This document shows positions 8,750-52,357 of a stretch of DNA of 64,000 nucleotides, piece after piece. Every line of letters starts with the position of its first letter. Position 1 is the stretch's first letter. The translations under genes were made by a program, and so were the position numbers. The notes beneath the pieces are model-generated. The model worked only from the letters and a program-made list of their open reading frames with translations, had not been told where the DNA came from and made no database searches. Location: assembly GCF_024296665.1 (NCBI RefSeq), contig NZ_CP100762.1, forward strand, positions 3,472,001 to 3,536,000, in the 5' to 3' direction. Source of the DNA: Salinilacihabitans rarus (GTDB taxonomy: Archaea; Halobacteriota; Halobacteria; Halobacteriales; Natrialbaceae).

Positions 8750-9247
8750 TCATCCGCGTAACTCCTCGTCGATGTCAGCCTGCGTGAAGTCGAAGAACTC
8801 CTCCGTGTCGGGCAGGTCGACGTCGAGGACGGTCAGGTTCGTCGGCCGTCCCTGCGAGTCGAACGCCTTCCAGTCGCCTCGCCGGTAGGGCGCGCCGACG
8901 ATGACGTGGACGCTCCCGCGGCCGAACGTCCCGAGATCCGCGTCGCTCGGCCGGAGCACGCCGTTCGGGTGCGAGTGGATGCTCCCGAGCGCGTTCACGT
9001 CGTTCGGAATCGCGCTCGACCTGACCGTCGCGCTCACGCTGTTGGTCTCGGTCCCGGGGACGACGAGCACGTCCGTGATCACCAGTCCGTCCCGGTCGAG
9101 CCCCAAGTCCCGCGCGTCGGTCCCCCGGAGGAAGCCCATGTACTCGTCCGGGTGGCTCGCCTCGGCGGACTCAAGCGCGAACTCGAGCGTCTCCTCGGCG
9201 ATGCCGAGGATCTCGCTCGAGCGAAACAGCGCGTCGAGCAGCCCCAT
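8750..9247 (-). CDS. JAMM/MPN-domain metalloprotease (desampylase-like)
   Basis: A 165-residue single-domain MPN protein. The JAMM zinc site is complete: an upstream glutamate in DEYMGFLRG (about residue 31), then [16 protein letters not shown] with His-x-His and the downstream Asp. In Haloferax, proteins of this family remove ubiquitin-like SAMP modifiers; which of the two known subtypes this is cannot be settled by reading alone. The ATG at 9247 (MGLLDALF) is preferred because the preceding open frame is low-complexity and non-conserved. It lies immediately upstream of ribL on the same strand. Confidence 0.88.
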
Positions 9248-9400
9248 ATCACCGTCTCCGGGCTTGTGGTTGCTAAACGTTCCGGAAGGCGCGTCGGATA
9301 TCGATTCCGCCGCCGCCGGGCGGTTTCTTGCCACAGGACCACTCTATATGACCCCTGCCGTCGTAGCTTCTTCCGGGGGACCACTCCTCCAGTTACTACC

Positions 9401-10510
9401 ATGGCAACTTTCAGACAATTCGTCTCGCCGCCAACGTACGTACAGGGACGCGGCGTCCTCGACGAACTCGGAGACCACGTCGCACCGTTGGGGGACACGG
9501 CACTGTTGCTCGCCGACGAGGTCGTCCTCGGGATCATCGAGGACCGCGCGGTCGAGAGCCTCGAAGCGGCCGGCGTCGACGTCGCCGTCGAGGAGTTCCG
9601 CGGCGAGGCTTCGGCCGTCGAGATCGACCGCATCGCCGACGTCGCCCGCGACGAGGGGGCGGACGTCGTGATCGGCGCCGGCGGCGGGAAGGCCCTCGAC
9701 ACCGGGAAGGCCGTCCGCGAGGCCGTCGGCGGCGCGGCGGTCTCGCTGCCGACGGTCGCCTCGACCGACGCGCCCACCAGCGCGCTCTCGGTCGTCTACA
9801 CGGAGGCCGGGGAGTTCGAGGAGTACCGCTTCTACGACGACCACCCCGACCTCGTGCTCGTCGACACGGCGGTCGTCGCGGCCGGTCCCACGCGGCTGTT
9901 CCGGTCGGGCGTCGCCGACGCGCTCGCGACGTGGTTCGAGGCCGACGCCGTCGCCACCTCCGGGTCGGAAAACGTCGTCGGCGGGGGGCCGACCGACGCC
10001 GCCCTCGCGCTCGCGAACCTCGCCTACGAGACGCTCCGGGCGCGGGCGGTCTCGGCCGTCACGGCGGTCGAGGCGGGCGCGGTCACCGAGAACGTCGAGT
10101 CGGTCGTCGAGGCGAACACGCTGCTGAGCGGCCTGGGCTTCGAGAGCGGCGGCCTCGCGGCGGCCCACTCGATCCACAACGGGCTGACCCAGTTAGAGGA
10201 GACCCACGACGCCACCCACGGCGAGAAGGTCAACGTCGGGACGATCAGCCAGCTCGTCCTCGAAGGGCGCGAAGACGCGTTCGTCGAGGACGTCGTCGAG
10301 TTCTCGATCGAGGTCGGCCTCCCGGTGACTCTCGAGGAGATCGGGCTCGCGGACCCGACCGACGACCAGCTACGGACGGTCGCCGAGGCCGCCTGCGCGG
10401 AGGCTGAAACCATCCACAACGAGCCGTTCGCGGTCTCGCCGTCGATGGTCGCGGACGCGATCGAGACGGCCGACGCGATCGGTCGCCGCGTCCGTGAGCG
10501 CCAGCACTGA
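9401..10510 (+). CDS. gldA: Iron/zinc-dependent alcohol dehydrogenase, GldA family
   Basis: A 369-residue member of the glycerol/glycerol-1-phosphate dehydrogenase superfamily. The NAD-binding GAGGGKALDTGKA motif lies at about residues 90-102, and metal ligands are visible as Asp in TVASTDAPTSA, His in LAAAHSIHNGL and His in DATHGEKV. Active-site STDAPTSA matches glycerol dehydrogenase rather than EgsA, which is shorter and has a different loop. The ATG at 9401 is supported by a TATA-like CTCTATATG about 50 nt upstream. Confidence 0.88.
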   Translation: MATFRQFVSPPTYVQGRGVLDELGDHVAPLGDTALLLADEVVLGIIEDRAVESLEAAGVDVAVEEFRGEASAVEIDRIADVARDEGADVVIGAGGGKALDTGKAVREAVGGAAVSLPTVASTDAPTSALSVVYTEAGEFEEYRFYDDHPDLVLVDTAVVAAGPTRLFRSGVADALATWFEADAVATSGSENVVGGGPTDAALALANLAYETLRARAVSAVTAVEAGAVTENVESVVEANTLLSGLGFESGGLAAAHSIHNGLTQLEETHDATHGEKVNVGTISQLVLEGREDAFVEDVVEFSIEVGLPVTLEEIGLADPTDDQLRTVAEAACAEAETIHNEPFAVSPSMVADAIETADAIGRRVRERQH

Positions 10511-10590
10511 GCGGGACGAGGCCGTCACCCCGCCCTCGCGGCAGTTCTTGGCAAGGGTTATACGCGCCCACCTCAAACGTCGGCCCAACG

Positions 10591-12498
10591 ATGACAGATG
10601 AGTCCGCCGGAGGATCCGGCGAAGACGGAGGTGTTTCCGTCGTCTACGATCTCGACGCCGACTGTACCGTAGAGGACGTCGACGCCGGTCGGCCGTACCT
10701 CGCGGAAATCAACGGTATCGTCGACTACGGGGTGTTCGTCGACCTCTCCGACTCGGTCTCGGGGCTCGTCCACGAGTCCGTCCTCGAAGGGACCTACCGC
10801 GTCGGCCAGGAACTGGTCGTCGAACTCGAAAACGTCCGCGACAACGGCGACATGGCGTTCGAACCCGTCGACGTCGGCGAGGAGTACGCGGTCGAACCCG
10901 TCTCCCACGACTACACCCTGACCGGCACCGACCGCCTCGAAGCGAACGTCGCAGACCAGATCCACCTCGAAGGCGAGGTCGTTCAGGTCAAACAGACCGG
11001 CGGCCCGACGGTCTTCCACGTCGCCGACGAGCACGGGGTCGTCCCCTGTGCCGCCTTCGAGGACGCCGGCGTCCGCGCGTACCCCTCGATCGAAGTCGGC
11101 GATCTCGTGCGCGTGACCGGCACCCCCGAGCACCGCGAAGGGACGATTCAGGTCGAGGTCGACGGCCTCTCCGCGCTCGACGGCGAGGCCGAGGCCGACG
11201 CCCGCGAGCGCCTCGAGACCGCCCTCGAAGCCCGCGCCGAGCCCCACGACGTCGAACCGCTGATCGACTGGCCCGCCTTCGAGACGCTGCGGCCCGACCT
11301 GCGCGAGGTCGCGCGACTGCTGCGCCGGACCGTCCTCGAAGGGCGGCCGATCCGCGTGCGCCACCACGCCGACGGCGACGGGATGTGCGCCGCCGTCCCC
11401 GTCCAACTGGCGCTCGAACGGTTCATCGCCGACGTCCACGAGGACCCCGACGCGCCGCGGCACCTCGTCAAGCGCCTGCCCGCGAAGGCGCCGTTCTACG
11501 AGATGGAAGACGCCACCCGCGACCTCAACTTCGCGCTCGAAGACCGGGCGAAACACGGCCAGCAACTGCCGCTCCTCCTGATGCTCGACAACGGCTCGAC
11601 GGCCGAGGACGTCCCGGCCTACGAGACGCTGGCCCACTACGACATCCCCATCGTCGCCGTCGACCACCACCACCCCGACCCCGAGGCCGTCGACGGCCTG
11701 CTCGACGCCCACGTCAACCCGTACCTCCACGGCGAGGACTACCGCATCACGACCGGGATGCTCTGTGTCGAACTCGCGCGGATGATCGACCCCGACCTCG
11801 GCGAGGACCTGCGGCACGTGCCGGCGGTCGCCGGCCTCGCCGACCGCTCGAAGGCCGACGCGATGGACGACTACCTCGACCTCGCCGCCGAGCAGGGCTA
11901 CGACGAGGACCGCCTGCGGGACGTCAGCGAGGCGCTCGACTACGCCGCGTTCTGGCTGCGGTACAACTCCGGCGACCGGCTGATCCGGGACCTGCTCGAA
12001 CTCGGCGACGCCGACGAGGAGCGCCACCGCGCCCTCGTCTCCTTCTTCGCCCGGCGCGCCCGCGAGGAGGTCGACGAGCAACTCGACGCCGCGATGTCCC
12101 ACCTCGAACACGAACCCCTCGACAACGGCGCACACCTCTACCGGATCGACGTCGAGAACTACGCCCACCGCTTTACCTACCCCGCGCCGGGCAAGACCAC
12201 CGGCGAGATCCACGACCGCAAGATCGAGGAGACCGGCGACCCCGTCATCACCGTCGGCTACGGGCCGGACTTCGCGGTCCTGCGCAGCGACGGCGTCCGT
12301 CTGGACATCCCCACGATGGTCTCGGAACTCGAAGCGGAGATTCCCGGCGGCGGCGTCTCCGGCGGCGGCCACCTCGTCGTCGGTTCGATCAAGTTCGTCA
12401 AGGGCAAACGCGAGGCAGTCATCGACGCCCTCGTCGAGAAGATGGCCGACGCCGACATCGACGAGGCCCTCTCGAGCGCGACCCCGCTCGACGACTGA
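10591..12498 (+). CDS. S1/OB-fold DHH phosphoesterase (RecJ-like nuclease)
   Basis: A 635-residue protein with an S1 RNA-binding domain (about residues 35-95, EINGIVDYGVFVDL), an OB-fold (about 120-205) and a DHH/DHHA1 phosphoesterase region. Catalytic motifs are RHHADGDGMCAA (residues 252-263), MLDNG (about 332) and VDHHHPD (about 355). Such archaeal RecJ-like proteins degrade single-stranded DNA or RNA and some associate with GINS at the replication fork; which role applies here is not readable. A TATA box (GGTTATACG) lies about 30 nt before the ATG. The 3' end overlaps the convergent phospholipase D-like gene by 80 bp. Confidence 0.9.
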   Translation: MTDESAGGSGEDGGVSVVYDLDADCTVEDVDAGRPYLAEINGIVDYGVFVDLSDSVSGLVHESVLEGTYRVGQELVVELENVRDNGDMAFEPVDVGEEYAVEPVSHDYTLTGTDRLEANVADQIHLEGEVVQVKQTGGPTVFHVADEHGVVPCAAFEDAGVRAYPSIEVGDLVRVTGTPEHREGTIQVEVDGLSALDGEAEADARERLETALEARAEPHDVEPLIDWPAFETLRPDLREVARLLRRTVLEGRPIRVRHHADGDGMCAAVPVQLALERFIADVHEDPDAPRHLVKRLPAKAPFYEMEDATRDLNFALEDRAKHGQQLPLLLMLDNGSTAEDVPAYETLAHYDIPIVAVDHHHPDPEAVDGLLDAHVNPYLHGEDYRITTGMLCVELARMIDPDLGEDLRHVPAVAGLADRSKADAMDDYLDLAAEQGYDEDRLRDVSEALDYAAFWLRYNSGDRLIRDLLELGDADEERHRALVSFFARRAREEVDEQLDAAMSHLEHEPLDNGAHLYRIDVENYAHRFTYPAPGKTTGEIHDRKIEETGDPVITVGYGPDFAVLRSDGVRLDIPTMVSELEAEIPGGGVSGGGHLVVGSIKFVKGKREAVIDALVEKMADADIDEALSSATPLDD

Positions 12499-19756: not shown

Positions 19757-20154
19757 TGGTGAGGATAGGAACCGCACTGACCGCCTCCGTACGCGACGGC
19801 CGAGTCACTCGGCTGTCGGTGCACTTCCGCAATCCCAAGCTACCCCGAATAGCGGGTAGCAGAGTCAGATTTGCGGCCGTGCGCTTCCCGCTGGAGCCTT
19901 CCGGTCGAACGGACTAAAGGGTTTCTAGACCGCCCCCGCGGCGATCGGACGCTGTGCTGGCTCCGCGCCGATCGGACTCTACGCCGACCCCGCGGCGATC
20001 GGACGCTATGCTGGCTCCGCGCCGATCGGACTCTACGCCGACCCCGCGGCGATCGGACGCTATGCTGGCTCCGCGCCGATCGGACTCTACGCCGACCCCG
20101 CGGCGATGACGCGATCGACGTCCATCGGCCGGACCGGTCGTCCCGTCGTGCCGA
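19757..20154. other. Intergenic region between rps15 and the acyl-CoA synthetase
   Basis: No convincing gene is present. The part next to rps15 must hold its promoter, although I see no strong TATA box. The rest is the 54-bp tandem repeat array described separately. A plus-strand open frame crosses the array, but only because the repeat length is divisible by three, and it continues into sequence antisense to the synthetase gene. Confidence 0.7.
19934..20107. repeat. 54-bp tandem repeat, 3.2 copies
   Basis: Copies begin at 19934, 19988, 20042 and 20096 (last one partial, 12 bp) and are nearly identical. One copy-1 position differs (CTGTGCTGG against CTATGCTGG). Each unit itself consists of two related 27-bp halves, one containing GCGGCGATCGGACGCT and the other GCGCCGATCGGACTCT. 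Each half carries CGATCG. There are no spacers, so this is a minisatellite and not a CRISPR. Confidence 0.95.
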
Positions 20155-47438: not shown

Positions 47439-47467
47439 GGCCGGCAGTGTGGCCGGGCGGCACATAA

Positions 47468-47500
47468 CAGTTGTTGGCAATGTGGGTGATGTTATTCAGT
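47468..47500 (+). repeat. Left terminal inverted repeat
   Basis: CAGTTGTTGGCAATGTG, seven variable bases, then TTATTCAGT. Preceded by ATAA. The reverse complement is found at 52243-52275. Confidence 0.85.
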
Positions 47501-47541
47501 TTGAGGGTGCCGCCGGGACGACCTCTTTCAGACGCTGAACT

Positions 47542-48140
47542 TCAGGTAAAATCCTTCCAAATTATCTCACTGAATTCTGATAATTCTCCCTCAGGAACTT
47601 CCCCGATTTCGAGTAAACCCGAGTCGTCAATCATGTTACTCAGGAATACGATGGCCTTCCAGTATTCCCCGTCCTCACTGAGGTCGTGATCGTCGTCTCG
47701 GTCGGCACCAATCGCGTTCGCCACCGTCCACATGTTGTACAGCAGCACCGCGTAGCCGAACAGGAACATTCGGTGTTCGATCTGACTCGATCCGGACTGT
47801 GGCAGAAACCGATTCTTGATCACTCGATATGAGGTCTCTACCCCCATCTGCCACGGAATTTCTCAGCCAGTACCTCCGCGCCGTTTCGCTCCTTGGTGGC
47901 GAATTCTCGCGGGTCGCGGTTGGTGTAGAACTGCGTCAGCGCGTCGGTCGGGTCGTCGAAGTCCTCTTTCTGGAGGCGTGACTTCTTCTCTTCCGGTAGC
48001 ACAAACATGTAGTCGCGTCCGTCCTTGACGTCGCCGACACCCCATCGGAAGTCATCCCACTCCTTGTCTTCTTCCAGCATCTCCGCTTGAGTGATGCCTC
48101 TGAATTGCCATCTTGAACCTTCATCTAGAAGTGGGACCAT
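47542..48140 (-). pseudogene. Transposase remnant, frameshifted and N-terminally truncated
   Basis: Two overlapping minus-strand frames form the C-terminal half of an IS4-like DDE transposase. The first ends KERNGAEVLAEKFRGRWG; the second continues GVETSYRVIKNRFLPQS, where a conserved catalytic Glu and the YR-x2-K signature would lie. One G is missing from the run near 47845. The N-terminal half with the first catalytic Asp residues is absent. The stop lies only 41 bp from the left terminal repeat, as in an IS end. Family is judged by motif only. Confidence 0.7.
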
Positions 48141-48173
48141 TCAATTACGTTGCACAATTATCGAGTAGCACAG

Positions 48174-48710
48174 ATGGATATCTCCGAGCGAAGTATACAC
48201 AAAGTAGAGTCTCACCTTCAGGCTCTCAGTGCAGAGTATGGTGATTTTGAGCGAATTGAGAAGACGTGGAACGTCTCATTATCAACGTACCGAGGCATCG
48301 TTGAACGGTTTGAGCAAGGGGGCTTTGGGGGTGCAGGTGTATGGATCACGAATGAACCAGGGGCGGTTTTACTGGTACGTAACGAAGGGGATGAAGGCTG
48401 GTCTGACCCTGGGGGGAAAGTAGAGGGTGGTGAATCCTTCGAAGAGGGCGCAAAACGAGAAGTCCGGGAAGAAACAGGTGTCCAGTGCCGACTGACGGGC
48501 CTTTGCGAGGTACATATCATAACGCACCGACCTGACAACACAGACGTGCCCCCTATCCACGCACCAATCGTGATCTTCCACGGGGAGTACGTGTCTGGAG
48601 ACCCACGGCCTCGTGAAGGCGAAATCGAAGAAGTTGGGTGGTTTCGAGAGCCGCCAGCGAATGTGCTATACGAGGAAGTGCGAACAAGACCGTACCCGGC
48701 TTGCGATTAA
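48174..48710 (+). CDS. NUDIX hydrolase
   Basis: A 178-residue protein. The Nudix box G-x5-E-x7-REVREETGV is complete at about residues 80-102, so a nucleoside-diphosphate-linked substrate is hydrolysed. The first 60 residues form a helical N-terminal region (ERSIHKVESHLQALSAEYG) seen in several haloarchaeal Nudix proteins. The ATG at 48174 is preferred over a TTG at 48150. It is transposon cargo, on the same strand as the HRAMP operon but separated by about 480 bp. A role in removing signalling nucleotides is possible but not shown. Confidence 0.88.
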   Translation: MDISERSIHKVESHLQALSAEYGDFERIEKTWNVSLSTYRGIVERFEQGGFGGAGVWITNEPGAVLLVRNEGDEGWSDPGGKVEGGESFEEGAKREVREETGVQCRLTGLCEVHIITHRPDNTDVPPIHAPIVIFHGEYVSGDPRPREGEIEEVGWFREPPANVLYEEVRTRPYPACD

Positions 48711-48892
48711 TTCAACAGTTGTTGACGTAGCTGGTTCGAACGAGCCAGCTATATCGTCTGCTGCATACGCGTCTTGTATCCATCACGGCGTATTCTGACT
48801 GGAAATAGAAACGACCGCCTTCTTCCTCGAATAAGAGTCTACGGTTAATACTGTAAGCTGATGTTTCGCCCAAGTCGTTACTTCGTAATCAG

Positions 48893-49117
48893 TCACCCCT
48901 CGTCACAGACAACGTTCCGTAGCTCTTCGAGGAGTTCTGGGTGATGTTCCGCGAGAACATCGACATCTGTCTCCAACTCTTCGATTCTGCTACGCACACG
49001 ATGGATTGCCTGGTATCGTTTTTCATCAGATACAGTAACCTCACCGGTAATTCTCTCACGGTCAGTCGTTGTCATAATGGCTCGGTATTTGCTCACGTAC
49101 CGTGATTCAGAGACCAT
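48893..49117 (-). CDS. Small coiled-coil protein, divergent from the HRAMP region
   Basis: A 74-residue protein. The start at 49117 is supported by a promoter box (TTGCTATGGTGC) exactly as far upstream as the matching box is from the first plus-strand frame (27 nt). The N-terminal part is basic (VSESRYVSKYRAI) and the rest is helical with heptads (VRSRIEELETDVDVLAEHH). It may be a regulator that binds the shared boxes, or an antitoxin-like protein; neither is proven. A shorter form could start at ATG 49075. Confidence 0.6.
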   Translation of the reverse strand: MVSESRYVSKYRAIMTTTDRERITGEVTVSDEKRYQAIHRVRSRIEELETDVDVLAEHHPELLEELRNVVCDEG

Positions 49118-49131
49118 CTACTTCTACGTTA

Positions 49132-49185
49132 GCACCATAGCAACCTGACTTTGCATCATAGCAAATAGTTTGCTATAATGCTAAG
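49132..49185. promoter_or_regulatory. Divergent promoter region with three TTTGCTAT-type boxes
   Basis: Minus-strand boxes read TTGCTATGGTGCTAA (49143 downward) and TTTGCTATGATGCAAA (49165 downward); the plus-strand box reads TTTGCTATAATGCTAA (49169-49184). The middle and plus boxes together make the perfect 19-bp palindrome ATAGCAAATAGTTTGCTAT (49158-49176). Outer boxes serve as TATA elements 27 nt from the starts at 49117 (minus) and 49196 (plus). The arrangement suggests one protein regulating both directions. Confidence 0.65.
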
Positions 49186-49195
49186 TTCTAAGTTG

Positions 49196-49294
49196 ATGGC
49201 CAATAGAGATGTGGCTGAGAAGCGCGGGATGGTTGAAAACGAGGCCGGTGTTGAAGGCACCGACCCCGCGCTTCGTGGAGCACACGAAGCATGA
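49196..49294 (+). CDS. 32-residue frame coupled to the next frame by ATGA
   Basis: A short frame beginning MANRDVAEKRGMVENEAG, charged and probably helical. Its TGA overlaps the ATG of the next frame (ATGA at 49291). It is the first ATG after the plus-strand promoter box at leaderless distance. Too short to classify; it may be a leader peptide, a small protein or a truncated remnant. Confidence 0.4.
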   Translation: MANRDVAEKRGMVENEAGVEGTDPALRGAHEA

Positions 49295-49579
49295 AGAACT
49301 CGACTCCAAAACCAGATGAAGGCATCGGGCTGAAGCTGTTAGACGAGATAGCGCAGATGGATATCCTGCTGCTGTCCGACGACAGTGAACCGCTCTATCG
49401 GGAACTGCTTGGAGCCAACGCGAAGACAAAACCGGAGGAGGTGGAACACCCCTGCGAGAAGATCACTGGTGAATACCGGGACGGTGGTGGGAACGAACGA
49501 CCTGATCCGCCAGCAGCACATGGGTGGCGGCGCATACGGCTCTCTCGACGCGCTGAAGAACGCACTCGGTACTCGCTGA
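49291..49579 (+). pseudogene. Frameshifted gene of unknown function upstream of the HRAMP operon
   Basis: The first frame encodes MKNSTPKPDEGIGLKLLDEI, then AQMDILLLSDDSEPLYREL and ends its sensible part near HPCEKIT. A second frame continues VNTGTVVGTNDLIRQQHMGG and GAYGSLDALKNALGTR to a stop at 49577. Removing one G near 49467 joins them into a protein of about 95 residues. The product is unrecognised. Either the gene is dead or the frameshift is programmed or a sequencing error. Confidence 0.45.
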
Positions 49580-49580
49580 C

Positions 49581-49590
49581 CCTTAAATGT
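49581..49590 (+). promoter_or_regulatory. Promoter of the HRAMP operon
   Basis: CCTTAAATGT, immediately after the preceding stop codon and 26-35 nt before the ATG at 49616. Good distance for a leaderless start. Confidence 0.55.
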
Positions 49591-49615
49591 GATAAGGTCT
49601 CGAAACCGGGTTACC

Positions 49616-50479
49616 ATGATTGAAGACATCGACCGGGACGTGTTCGTGCGAATCCGGACAGACCTGCTGGTGGTCGGTGACAGCATCATGACCGACAGAC
49701 ACCACGCCTCGAACGGCAACTACGAGGACGACGACCCGCAGAACCAGATTGGCGGTATCATCCCCGCCTTTCCGCTCTCGGGCTGGCTTCGCCATGGGAT
49801 GGAGCGCGTCGTTCACGAGTACGACGGCACCGCCTGCCATCCTGGAGAGGCCAACGCGAACTTCATGAAAGAAGAGGTCTACGACCGCGATCTCGCCGAC
49901 GGCTACCACGAGAAAGGCGCGTGCGTCGATGACCCCAAAGAAGACAACGGCTGCGTGGTCTTCGACCTCTTCGGCGGCTTCGGCAACCAGCCGGGAAAGG
50001 TGATGCGTCGCCCGATCAAGTTTAACCCCGTCCGCTCCAGCGTGGACTACACACGTGGGCAGGCCGAAGGCCACTACCGCCGGCTGAACCGGAACGTCGT
50101 CTCCCGCAACCGGGAGGACAACCGAGAACCGCTACGGAACGCCGCAGTAGACGCCGTCGCCAATCTGGACGGCTGCTGGCATCTCTCGTTCCGGGAGACG
50201 AAGCCCGAGTTCATCGGTCTGCTCGCGGAGGGGATCGACTTCCTCGATGAGCACAAGACGAACTTCATGCACCAGCTCGGTGGCGCGCGCAACTTCGGCG
50301 CAGGGATCGTCGATTGCCACCTCATCAATCCGCTGTACGAGGAACGCGAACTGAAGCGCGTCTTCGACCGCGGGAAGGGCAACACGAACAAGATGAACGA
50401 GAAAGACGACCAGTGGGCTGAAGAGTACCGCCCAGCGTTCGTGGAGGCGCTGGAAGAGCGTATCGAAGAGGGGTCGTAG
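49616..50479 (+). CDS. HRAMP system Cas7-like RAMP protein
   Basis: A 287-residue RAMP-superfamily protein resembling Cas7 backbone subunits (Csm3/Cmr4 group). The motifs appear in canonical order: IPAFPLSGWLRHGMERV at 49-65 (equivalent of the Cas7 serine/glycine/arginine motif), VVFDLFGGFGN at 114-124, and the glycine-rich LGGARNFGAGIVDC at 221-234. Cas7 proteins polymerise along a guide RNA. With the next two genes this matches the haloarchaeal HRAMP locus described from comparative genomics. Start ATG 49616 fits the promoter; a GTG at 49589 is less likely. No CRISPR array is nearby. Confidence 0.8.
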   Translation: MIEDIDRDVFVRIRTDLLVVGDSIMTDRHHASNGNYEDDDPQNQIGGIIPAFPLSGWLRHGMERVVHEYDGTACHPGEANANFMKEEVYDRDLADGYHEKGACVDDPKEDNGCVVFDLFGGFGNQPGKVMRRPIKFNPVRSSVDYTRGQAEGHYRRLNRNVVSRNREDNREPLRNAAVDAVANLDGCWHLSFRETKPEFIGLLAEGIDFLDEHKTNFMHQLGGARNFGAGIVDCHLINPLYEERELKRVFDRGKGNTNKMNEKDDQWAEEYRPAFVEALEERIEEGS

Positions 50480-51259
50480 ATGGGCGAGAGTGCTACCCTC
50501 AGCGACTTCCAGGGCGACGGCGGTCAGAACGTGATGGTCGCGGCCTACCGCCACGACGCTCACAAGCTCAACGGCGAGACGCACGACTACGCGCCGGACA
50601 CCTTCCACGGCGTCCCGGTGAACCAGACCGTCCCACACGGCGCGGACGGCGACGCGTCGGCGCTCTCGCGTCCCAACGGGAAGCCCGAACAGACTGTGGA
50701 CAACCACGAGACGCACTACCGGCTCTCGCTGCTGACGGGCGACTCTCACTACGACTCGGAGGAGTTCTCACGCCCCCATCTCTCTGAGGCCATCAGCGAT
50801 CTGCTGACGGGCACCGACCCCGAGGCGATGCATCGGGCGTGGCTCACGTCGGACGTAGCGAGCGGCTTCAACGAGAGCATCTACTACCCGTACACGAGCT
50901 TGAAGTACCACACGCTGCTCGTGGCGGCACTCTTGGACAACTACCGCGCCGGTCACGAGTTCGCCGATCTTCTTCTGGTCGTGGACGATGCCGAGGAGAT
51001 CGTGGCCCACCGGACGGTCTACGCGGGCGACCGCTTCGCGCTCCGAATCGACGAGGACGCCGACGGCCAGCCGTGGGCGCGCCTTGGAAGCCGCCCGTGG
51101 CGGTCGTGGGCGTCGGCGTGGAAGCGCCTCACCGCGCACCCGCTCGACGTCAATCACGACAAGCACGACATGGTTCTCGATGCGAACCTCCGGCGGATCT
51201 GGAGTTGGAGCACTGCACTCCAGTACATCGAGGATCTCGAAACCCGGAGGGAGAGCTAA
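50480..51259 (+). CDS. HRAMP system conserved protein of unknown fold
   Basis: A 259-residue protein whose ATG directly abuts the stop of the Cas7-like gene and whose stop overlaps the start of the next. It begins with a glycine/aspartate-rich LSDFQGDGGQNVMVAAYRHD, has several histidine-containing segments (DNHETHYRLSLLTGDSHYD) and ends in a tryptophan-rich helical region (RPWRSWASAWKRLTAHPLD). No glycine-rich RAMP loop is visible. It corresponds by position to the uncharacterised conserved protein reported in HRAMP loci. It could be a large-subunit substitute, a small subunit or a nuclease; sequence does not decide. Confidence 0.75.
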   Translation: MGESATLSDFQGDGGQNVMVAAYRHDAHKLNGETHDYAPDTFHGVPVNQTVPHGADGDASALSRPNGKPEQTVDNHETHYRLSLLTGDSHYDSEEFSRPHLSEAISDLLTGTDPEAMHRAWLTSDVASGFNESIYYPYTSLKYHTLLVAALLDNYRAGHEFADLLLVVDDAEEIVAHRTVYAGDRFALRIDEDADGQPWARLGSRPWRSWASAWKRLTAHPLDVNHDKHDMVLDANLRRIWSWSTALQYIEDLETRRES

Positions 51260-52194
51260 TGGCCCGCATTCAACGAGTTCATTGGGAACTCGACATGGAC
51301 TACCTCGGGCATCCCTACTACGTCTCGGGGAACGCGATCTACCACGCGCTCGGGATGTTGCTGGAGCACGACGTCCACCAGCATATCAACGCCAGCCACG
51401 GGATGTTCGTGCCCGGCCAGTTCGGGACGTTCCCGAAAGAGTACTCGCAGAGCGGGATTCGACCGTACATGGGGTCGTCGCTCCCCGACGTGGAGAGCTA
51501 CGACGACCTGTTCCTCTTCCGGCATCCCGACCACCCGTGGCTGCTCGATACTCGGCCCCGCGACGGGCTGAACGCCCACGACATCCGGTTCCAGAGCGGG
51601 ATGCCCGCGCTGGCTCACGAGACGATCATGGGCCGGCCCGACGACGCTCGGAAACAGCAGCAGACCACGCGCTGGTACGTGAACGCCTACCTGCACGCCG
51701 ATGACCTGGACGTTCTACCCCTCGGCGAGGACGTGCTTGACGGCCTCCAGTTCGGAGGCAAACGGAACTACGGCTACGGGACGACCACGCTGAAAGACAC
51801 GCAGGTCGTTGACCTGGAGGTACTGGACTACTCGCGTCTCGAAGACGGCGAGGCGTTCATCCTCGAACTTGTGACGCCGTTCGTCCTCCAGTCGGAGTAC
51901 CCGAAGGCGAACAACGTGGACGTTCCCTGGTGGTGGAGCGTAGACGACGAAGCGCAGCTGCGCCACCGCCTGGAGAAGGTCATCGAGGGCGGCGACGTAT
52001 ACGAGTTGGAGACGGTCGATCACGGCGTGGTCGTCGGCTACGATGGCGACCGTCCGGTGGAGACCGCGATGTCCGGACTCACCCGCGTCGGGAATCACTC
52101 GAAGTACGGCTTCGGAGAGCTTCGAGTGAAGCCAGTCACTCCAGATGAAACTAACGTCAAGAAACGGATAGAAAACCGGAAGTCGGAGCACTGA
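51259..52194 (+). CDS. HRAMP system Cas5/Cas6-like RAMP protein
   Basis: A 311-residue protein with two RAMP-type glycine-rich loops: LQFGGKRNYGYGTTTL at 163-178 and GNHSKYGFGELRVKPV near 276-291. Two such loops suggest two ferredoxin-like domains, as in Cas5 and Cas6. Histidines in the N-terminal part (His36-His42, HDVHQHI) might serve catalysis if it is Cas6-like, but that is speculation. It overlaps the preceding gene by one base (TAATG), so the three genes form a tight operon. It is the last gene before the right transposon end. Confidence 0.75.
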   Translation: MARIQRVHWELDMDYLGHPYYVSGNAIYHALGMLLEHDVHQHINASHGMFVPGQFGTFPKEYSQSGIRPYMGSSLPDVESYDDLFLFRHPDHPWLLDTRPRDGLNAHDIRFQSGMPALAHETIMGRPDDARKQQQTTRWYVNAYLHADDLDVLPLGEDVLDGLQFGGKRNYGYGTTTLKDTQVVDLEVLDYSRLEDGEAFILELVTPFVLQSEYPKANNVDVPWWWSVDDEAQLRHRLEKVIEGGDVYELETVDHGVVVGYDGDRPVETAMSGLTRVGNHSKYGFGELRVKPVTPDETNVKKRIENRKSEH

Positions 52195-52242
52195 CAAACG
52201 AACAATGACCGGCAAGGATTCCGCAGTGTCCCAGTCGGTCAG

Positions 52243-52275
52243 ACTGAATAAAGTAGATCACATTGCCAACAACTG
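52243..52275 (-). repeat. Right terminal inverted repeat
   Basis: Reverse complement reads CAGTTGTTGGCAATGTG, seven variable bases and TTATTCAGT, identical in layout to the left end. Followed by ATAA. It lies 49 bp after the last HRAMP gene. Confidence 0.85.
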
Positions 52276-52357
52276 ATAACTGCGCGGATTCCGGCGGATC
52301 GGACGGAATTCTACCCCCACCGGTACCGTATTACGTGGCCCCTGCGAGGCATCGACC

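Follow-up and report, generated by a model that had tools for sequence, protein, structure and literature searches.

The question raised by this locus is whether a set of CRISPR-related genes without a CRISPR array serves the mobile element that carries it. In the window, i.e. the whole stretch of 64,000 nucleotides of Salinilacihabitans rarus DNA that was analysed, three genes at 49616-52194 had been assigned in an initial annotation to the HRAMP type. To our knowledge, the function of HRAMP has never been demonstrated.

Gene products of the operon

The three genes are on the forward strand and closely packed: the cas7-like gene (49616-50479) is followed with a gap of 0 bp by the middle gene (50480-51259), which overlaps the cas5-like gene (51259-52194) by 1 base (TAATG). 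A putative ORF of 110 aa (49291-49623, forward strand) would be the first of the operon; it starts directly 3' of the P4 hairpin of the leader RNA described below, and the same 110 codons are open in two relatives. Homologues of Cas7 were found in 78 of 292 Halobacteria genomes, and pairwise dN/dS values of the cas-like genes among close copies were mostly 0.07-0.2. This means that the three ORFs are real genes; the cas-like genes are under purifying selection. A search of a phage collection gave no match. In a copy on a type-strain plasmid, pHSAL1 of Halobacterium salinarum 91-R6 (L214), every cas-like gene bears the annotation hypothetical protein.

As single sequences, the Cas7-like protein of the window matched the type III RAMP model TIGR03986 (E 0.0046) and Csm3 (8e-4) weakly, the Cas5-like protein matched Cmr3 weakly (1.3e-5), and the profile search with the middle protein gave no convincing match. 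At the level of families, up to 15 of 27 Cas7-like members match Csm3 models (best 7.5e-7) and all 26 of the 26 Cas5-like members match PADLOC Cmr3 models (best 1.3e-8). The glycine-rich RAMP loops, two of which are in the Cas5-like protein, are invariant or nearly so in the family alignments. Furthermore, the predicted model of Cas7 (pLDDT 74) matches solved Cas7/Csm3 chains in Foldseek (1.2e-6); the matched chains are those of Csm3 and of type IV and type VII Cas7, with VIA Z up to 9.8. Structure prediction covered the Cas7-like and middle proteins, and the identity of the Cas5-like protein rests on profile matches.

The middle protein consists of 259 residues. Its AlphaFold model had a pLDDT of 78 and a pTM of 0.83; one of the five models was clearly better, and the other four were less confident. 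In Foldseek the matches of this model were weak (E 0.22), with Cas10 as the top six and nine of the top eleven. VIA-align superposed it on Csm1 with a Z of 11.8 over 228-234 of the 259 residues, and all 48 matches listed were Cas10. In the HD-type N-terminal motif RHDxHK, the residues R24, H25, D26, H28, and K29 are invariant. The GGDD cyclase motif is found in none of the 22 aligned sequences. Profile searches of the middle protein for Cas10 gave no match, and a Cas10 link at the level of sequence was dropped; the claim stands on the predicted fold, which makes a miniature Cas10 without GGDD the probable identity of the middle protein.

Profile and fold matches thus support the view that the operon encodes a reduced type III-like complex, made up of a Csm3-like Cas7, a Cmr3-like Cas5, and a miniature Cas10-like subunit. 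It shares with the type III Csm and Cmr complexes a Cas7 of the Csm3 type, a Cas5 of the Cmr3 type, and, by fold, a Cas10-like subunit, whereas this last subunit has only 259 aa and no GGDD. Neither Cas6, Cas11, nor an array was recognised in the element that carries the operon.

The gene coupling, the Cas7-like RAMP nature of the first protein, and the two RAMP loops of the third agree with what the initial annotation had proposed. The RAMP fold, on which that proposal depended, is present by fold match in the first protein; the third protein was judged by profile only. The middle protein is conserved, as had been stated, and its gene is found in both HRAMP branches described below. Its fold had been given as unknown, but the model matches Cas10/Csm1. 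For this reason, the statement that no cas10 is present needs qualifying; the absence of an array holds within the element.

Two branches of HRAMP

HRAMP (Makarova et al. 2019) is described in PMC8730458 and PMC12669027 as having diverged Cas5 and Cas7 and a further conserved protein, typically with exonuclease, HNH, or PD-(D/E)xK-like nuclease genes. In the window operon a diverged Cas7, a diverged Cas5, a further conserved protein, and an array-free locus are all found, and the typically associated nucleases are missing. Since the literature says "typically", the operon is filed as a variant HRAMP branch. Gene content supports this assignment, as does relatedness to loci of haloarchaea that have the published HRAMP features; the comparison was made with published descriptions of HRAMP. 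The likeness extends to the haloarchaeal host and to type III as the nearest type, while the window branch differs in its location in a transposon, in forming its own Cas7 clade, and in being without associated nucleases.

The two branches are distinguished by several features. The Cas7 homologues of the transposon branch are about 70-97% identical to the window Cas7, those of the canonical loci 54-60%, most of them 54-58%, and two are very distant. In the tree, in which some re-fetched copies from transposon loci are unlabelled, the transposon-borne Cas7s form one clade with support 100/100: the branch has a single origin. A right terminal repeat of the transposon is found 3' of cas5 in 33 of 48 branch loci versus 0 of 15 canonical or distant loci, at a scoring threshold of 19 with a best control score of 18. 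The canonical loci have a DEDD exonuclease-like gene together with an HNH or a PD-(D/E)xK-like gene (the latter called by eye), and these nuclease genes are missing beside the operon in the transposon branch. The genome of the window itself has a canonical HRAMP locus (L051, C1:777252-778073), the Cas7 of which is 56% identical to that of the window; it is accompanied by a DEDD exonuclease-like gene and a PD-(D/E)xK-like gene. One very distant Cas7 (L067, 31% identical) has a leader RNA upstream at 43.8 bits, and no MID or Cas5 is detectable by profile at this locus.

The HRAMP interpretation is therefore upheld in gene content and kinship and needs amending as to the associated nucleases, which the branch does not have. 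In addition to this nuclease-free branch, it had overlooked the transposon with its ends and empty site, the likeness of the middle protein to a reduced Cas10, and a conserved structured RNA upstream in the same element. A search of literature that took in few subscription papers, on HRAMP and on haloarchaeal transposons in connection with Cas7, gave no report of the element.

The transposon and its transposase

A transposon of 4808 bp (47468-52275), with defined ends and a clean empty site, carries the operon as cargo. DNA homology to the closest copies breaks off at about 47463 and 52284, and inverted repeats beginning CAGTTGTTGGCAATGTG are located at these breakpoints, with ATAA on either flank. 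The left terminal inverted repeat (32 bp, CAGTTGTTGGCAATGTGGGTGATGTTATTCAG) occupies 47468-47499 on the forward strand and the right one (32 bp) 52244-52275 on the reverse strand. The target-site duplication ATAA is at 47464-47467 and, in a matching copy, at 52276-52279; it is single in the empty site of relatives. In two of these (L197 and L204) the two genes that flank the window element are 125-167 bp apart and the site, a single ACATAAT, is uninserted. The empty site of L197 reads CCCACATAATTGCCCGGATTCCGGCGG, and the filled site of the window reads CACATAA, the element, and then ATAACTGCGCGGATTCCGGCGG.

In 13 elements with differing flanks, the ends match and the 4-bp duplications, which have the form WTAN, are identical. 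Their insertion sites are diverse; no shared attachment gene was apparent among them, and such a gene as the common target was dropped. In the window, L032, L052, and others, the distance between the insertion and a start codon is often about 29-30 bp, the location of the TATA box in a leaderless haloarchaeal gene.

Among the copies the HRAMP module is constant and the remaining cargo varies. The HTH-NUDIX gene of the window copy (48174-48710, forward strand; Pfam NUDIX 1.5e-20) is found in none of the other copies compared by DNA. A small gene of about 60 aa (48893-49075, reverse strand) belongs to a family that stands divergently upstream of the leader RNA at many loci. The stop codon of the cas5-like gene is 81 bp from the right end in the window element, and the distance from the right end to cas7 is similar in other copies. 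In this haloarchaeal DDE transposon, which makes 4-bp target duplications, the operon is the constant module of the cargo. Extra copies of the terminal repeat, with the look of MITE-type or solo-end relics, are seen at +5619 to +5756 in L037 and at -814/-434 in L043, relative to cas7. TnpB-grouped genes of about 220 aa lie just upstream of cas7 in L035, L047, L049, L052, and L053; the one scanned, that of L047, has OrfB_IS605 and a zinc domain and is possibly a truncated TnpB kept as cargo.

In many copies, a DDE-domain transposase about 600-690 aa long is encoded upstream on the opposite strand, and D317, D399, and E516 are invariant in the intact transposases. The copy of Haloferax sulfurifontis ATCC BAA-897 (L034/L072) has an intact transposase together with terminal inverted repeats and a target-site duplication. 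In the window a remnant is left (47542-48140, reverse strand): the C-terminal part in two broken frames, which matches residues 434-612 of the L034 transposase (618 aa) at 90-96% identity. The DDE domains of the HRAMP-linked transposases scanned match the ISH3 model NF033541 at 64-123 bits, below its curated cut-off of 225. They are longer than ISH3 transposases, and their elements have a 4-bp duplication, whereas ISH3 elements have one of 5 bp (PMC10264941).

Of the 13 elements bounded by terminal inverted repeats, eight kept the cas-like genes and have no intact transposase. The dN/dS values of the transposase remnants (0.08-0.14) are as low as those of the cas-like genes; this indicates that loss of the transposase was recent and does not demonstrate selection on the orphan copies. 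The transposase of the window element is dead, so its module can probably move only if it is mobilised in trans; the three cas-like genes are intact.

The link between module and transposase is close but not exclusive. Among the 292 Halobacteria genomes, 13 of the 14 long transposase copies (>650 bits) are HRAMP-linked, a count that leans to linked copies because the search profile was built from such copies. The transposase subfamilies are about 30-34% identical to one another, whereas the Cas7s paired with them share 80-97% identity with that of the window. This contrast means that modules and transposases have been exchanged. In the transposase tree the HRAMP label requires 3 changes, and HRAMP-free relatives, equal in length to the HRAMP-linked transposases, are inside the wider clade; a restriction of the transposase to HRAMP by descent was dropped on these grounds. 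L187 has an HRAMP-free copy that is bounded by a right repeat of its own and falls inside the HRAMP transposase clade. No TnsC/TniQ-like adaptor was seen. In L173, a TnpB-like gene adjoins, by eye, an HRAMP-free transposase relative at 9204-11108.

Guide sources, the leader RNA, and the possible role of the module

The initial annotation held that a guide RNA, if the complex uses one, must come from elsewhere, and the searches made here are consistent with this. Neither the window element nor the other elements have direct repeats of at least 15 nt at a spacing of 45-90 bp, and a mini-array inside the element was dropped. In the wider window there are 81 pairs of 20-mers at this spacing; the five pairs listed all belong to a 54-bp tandem repeat, which is at 19933-20062. 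When the 13 elements were compared with their own 200-bp flanks, no match of at least 13 nt was found, and a guide matching the insertion site was dropped. The last 130 bp of 24 elements gave no consensus RNA structure (RNAalifold energy 0), so that a TnpB-like right-end guide RNA was also discarded. Cas1 is encoded elsewhere in the genome of the window, in two copies. Two matching stretches of this genome, C1:559750/620492 and 567334/628076 (L143 and L144), are 60,742 bp apart, and each has Cas1 and a copy of the leader RNA; a large duplication or an assembly fault might account for them.

The structured leader RNA is located at 49203-49304 on the forward strand. Its helix P1 (49219-49228/49265-49274) encloses P2 and P3 in a three-way junction, and the hairpin P4 (49270-49277/49283-49290) competes with P1. 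A covariance model trained without the window sequence finds it at 43.6 bits (E 1.1e-10). In 43 distinct sequences 93.6% of the cells pair, and 21 of 23 pairs show changes on both sides. The covariation score was 0.412, compared with 0.121 for shuffled and at most 0.074 for slid controls, on an alignment that was fitted to the proposed structure and so favours the score. No match to Rfam was found. The RNA is present at L143-L162, at most branch loci, and, by eye, at some canonical loci. It should be mentioned that it occurs in 118 of the 292 genomes, some of which have no Cas7 homologue; one genome without a detected homologue (G092) has five copies. Diverse small ORFs start right 3' of P4, with the small divergent gene upstream. 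Since operons of genomes in which no Cas7 homologue was detected also begin with this RNA, it is no partner specific to HRAMP, and the role of dedicated guide was rejected as a general one. It is interpreted here as a cis-regulatory leader that operons of haloarchaeal mobile elements commonly have.

The most likely role of the module seems to be RNA-guided interference, with the element as its carrier. The HRAMP effector would bind small RNAs supplied by the cell and interfere with foreign or competing nucleic acid. To do so, it might use the active sites of its Cas7 and Cas10-like subunits or borrow the nucleases of a chromosomal HRAMP, such as that at C1:777 kb. The transposon would carry the module between genera, and the host cell or the element would gain protection. 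This complete picture, of a transposon-carried, reduced type III-like HRAMP effector that uses cell-supplied small RNAs against foreign or competing nucleic acid, is held tentatively, at somewhat less than an even chance. It is slightly favoured over guided transposition because of the eight orphan elements out of 13, the diverse sites, and the lack of a visible adaptor or guide. However, the branch is without the canonical HRAMP nucleases, as CRISPR-associated transposons (CASTs) lack theirs, and the tight link to one transposase group also fits a role in transposition. Interference is as unproven as targeting, since no guide source was found.

The published CASTs found in the literature searched are all Tn7- or Mu-like (PMC11656645, PMC10910872). 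The window element shares with them a nuclease-poor Class 1 effector module within transposon ends. It differs in having a single ISH3/IS4-related DDE transposase with a 4-bp duplication in place of a Tn7- or Mu-like transposase with accessories; it is without TnsC/TniQ, an array, or a guide matching the target site, is archaeal and type III-derived, and bears no sign of guided insertion. If the module nevertheless acted in this way, a guide-loaded HRAMP complex would bring the DDE transposase to its target, and the nucleases would have been lost on capture. The constant position of the module between transposase and right end, the missing nuclease partners, and the partnership with several subfamilies of transposase, together with the (biased) linkage of the long copies, would fit such a mechanism, which is considered rather unlikely in view of the missing repeats, flank matches, and adaptor, the HRAMP-free relatives of equal length, the HRAMP-free copy L187, and insertion at diverse WTAN spots. 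RNA-guided transposition is thus possible but unsupported, and its specific form, an archaeal non-Tn7 CAST derived from type III in which a complex of Cas7, Cas5, and miniature Cas10 directs the ISH3-related transposase, is judged unlikely.

The remaining explanations require less of the module, or something different. The operon might be ordinary cargo that was acquired a single time, spread by chance, and plays no part for the transposon. The single origin of the branch agrees with this, and defence genes are often carried by transposons (PMC11656645); nonetheless, constancy of HRAMP beside variable other cargo and its linkage to nearly all long transposase copies make such a passive passenger improbable. 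The complex might instead regulate or stabilise the transposon, for instance by silencing host responses or the transposase; the leader RNA would then be its RNA partner or control element. Many copies and, by eye, some canonical loci do have this conserved, covarying RNA at the head of the operon, but it also precedes many operons of genomes with no detected Cas7 homologue, and self-regulation appears quite improbable. Retention of the TnpB/IscB kind, in which a read-through RNA of right end and flank would guide re-cutting of the empty donor site, could draw on the short and similar distances of the cas genes to the right end. With no consensus RNA structure in that region of the 24 elements, and with the ordinary terminal repeats and target duplications of a DDE transposon, it is the least credible of these explanations and very improbable.

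Reading the middle HRAMP subunit as a shrunken Cas10 would tie the system to type III. This branch of HRAMP is in a transposon with exact ends, intact transposases, and an empty site, so that its role can be tested directly in haloarchaea that grow in culture. Guided transposition by the module, if real, would have no precedent beyond the Tn7 and Mu groups in the published work considered; if RNA-guided interference, the preferred reading, is its role, it would show how array-less relatives of CRISPR spread.
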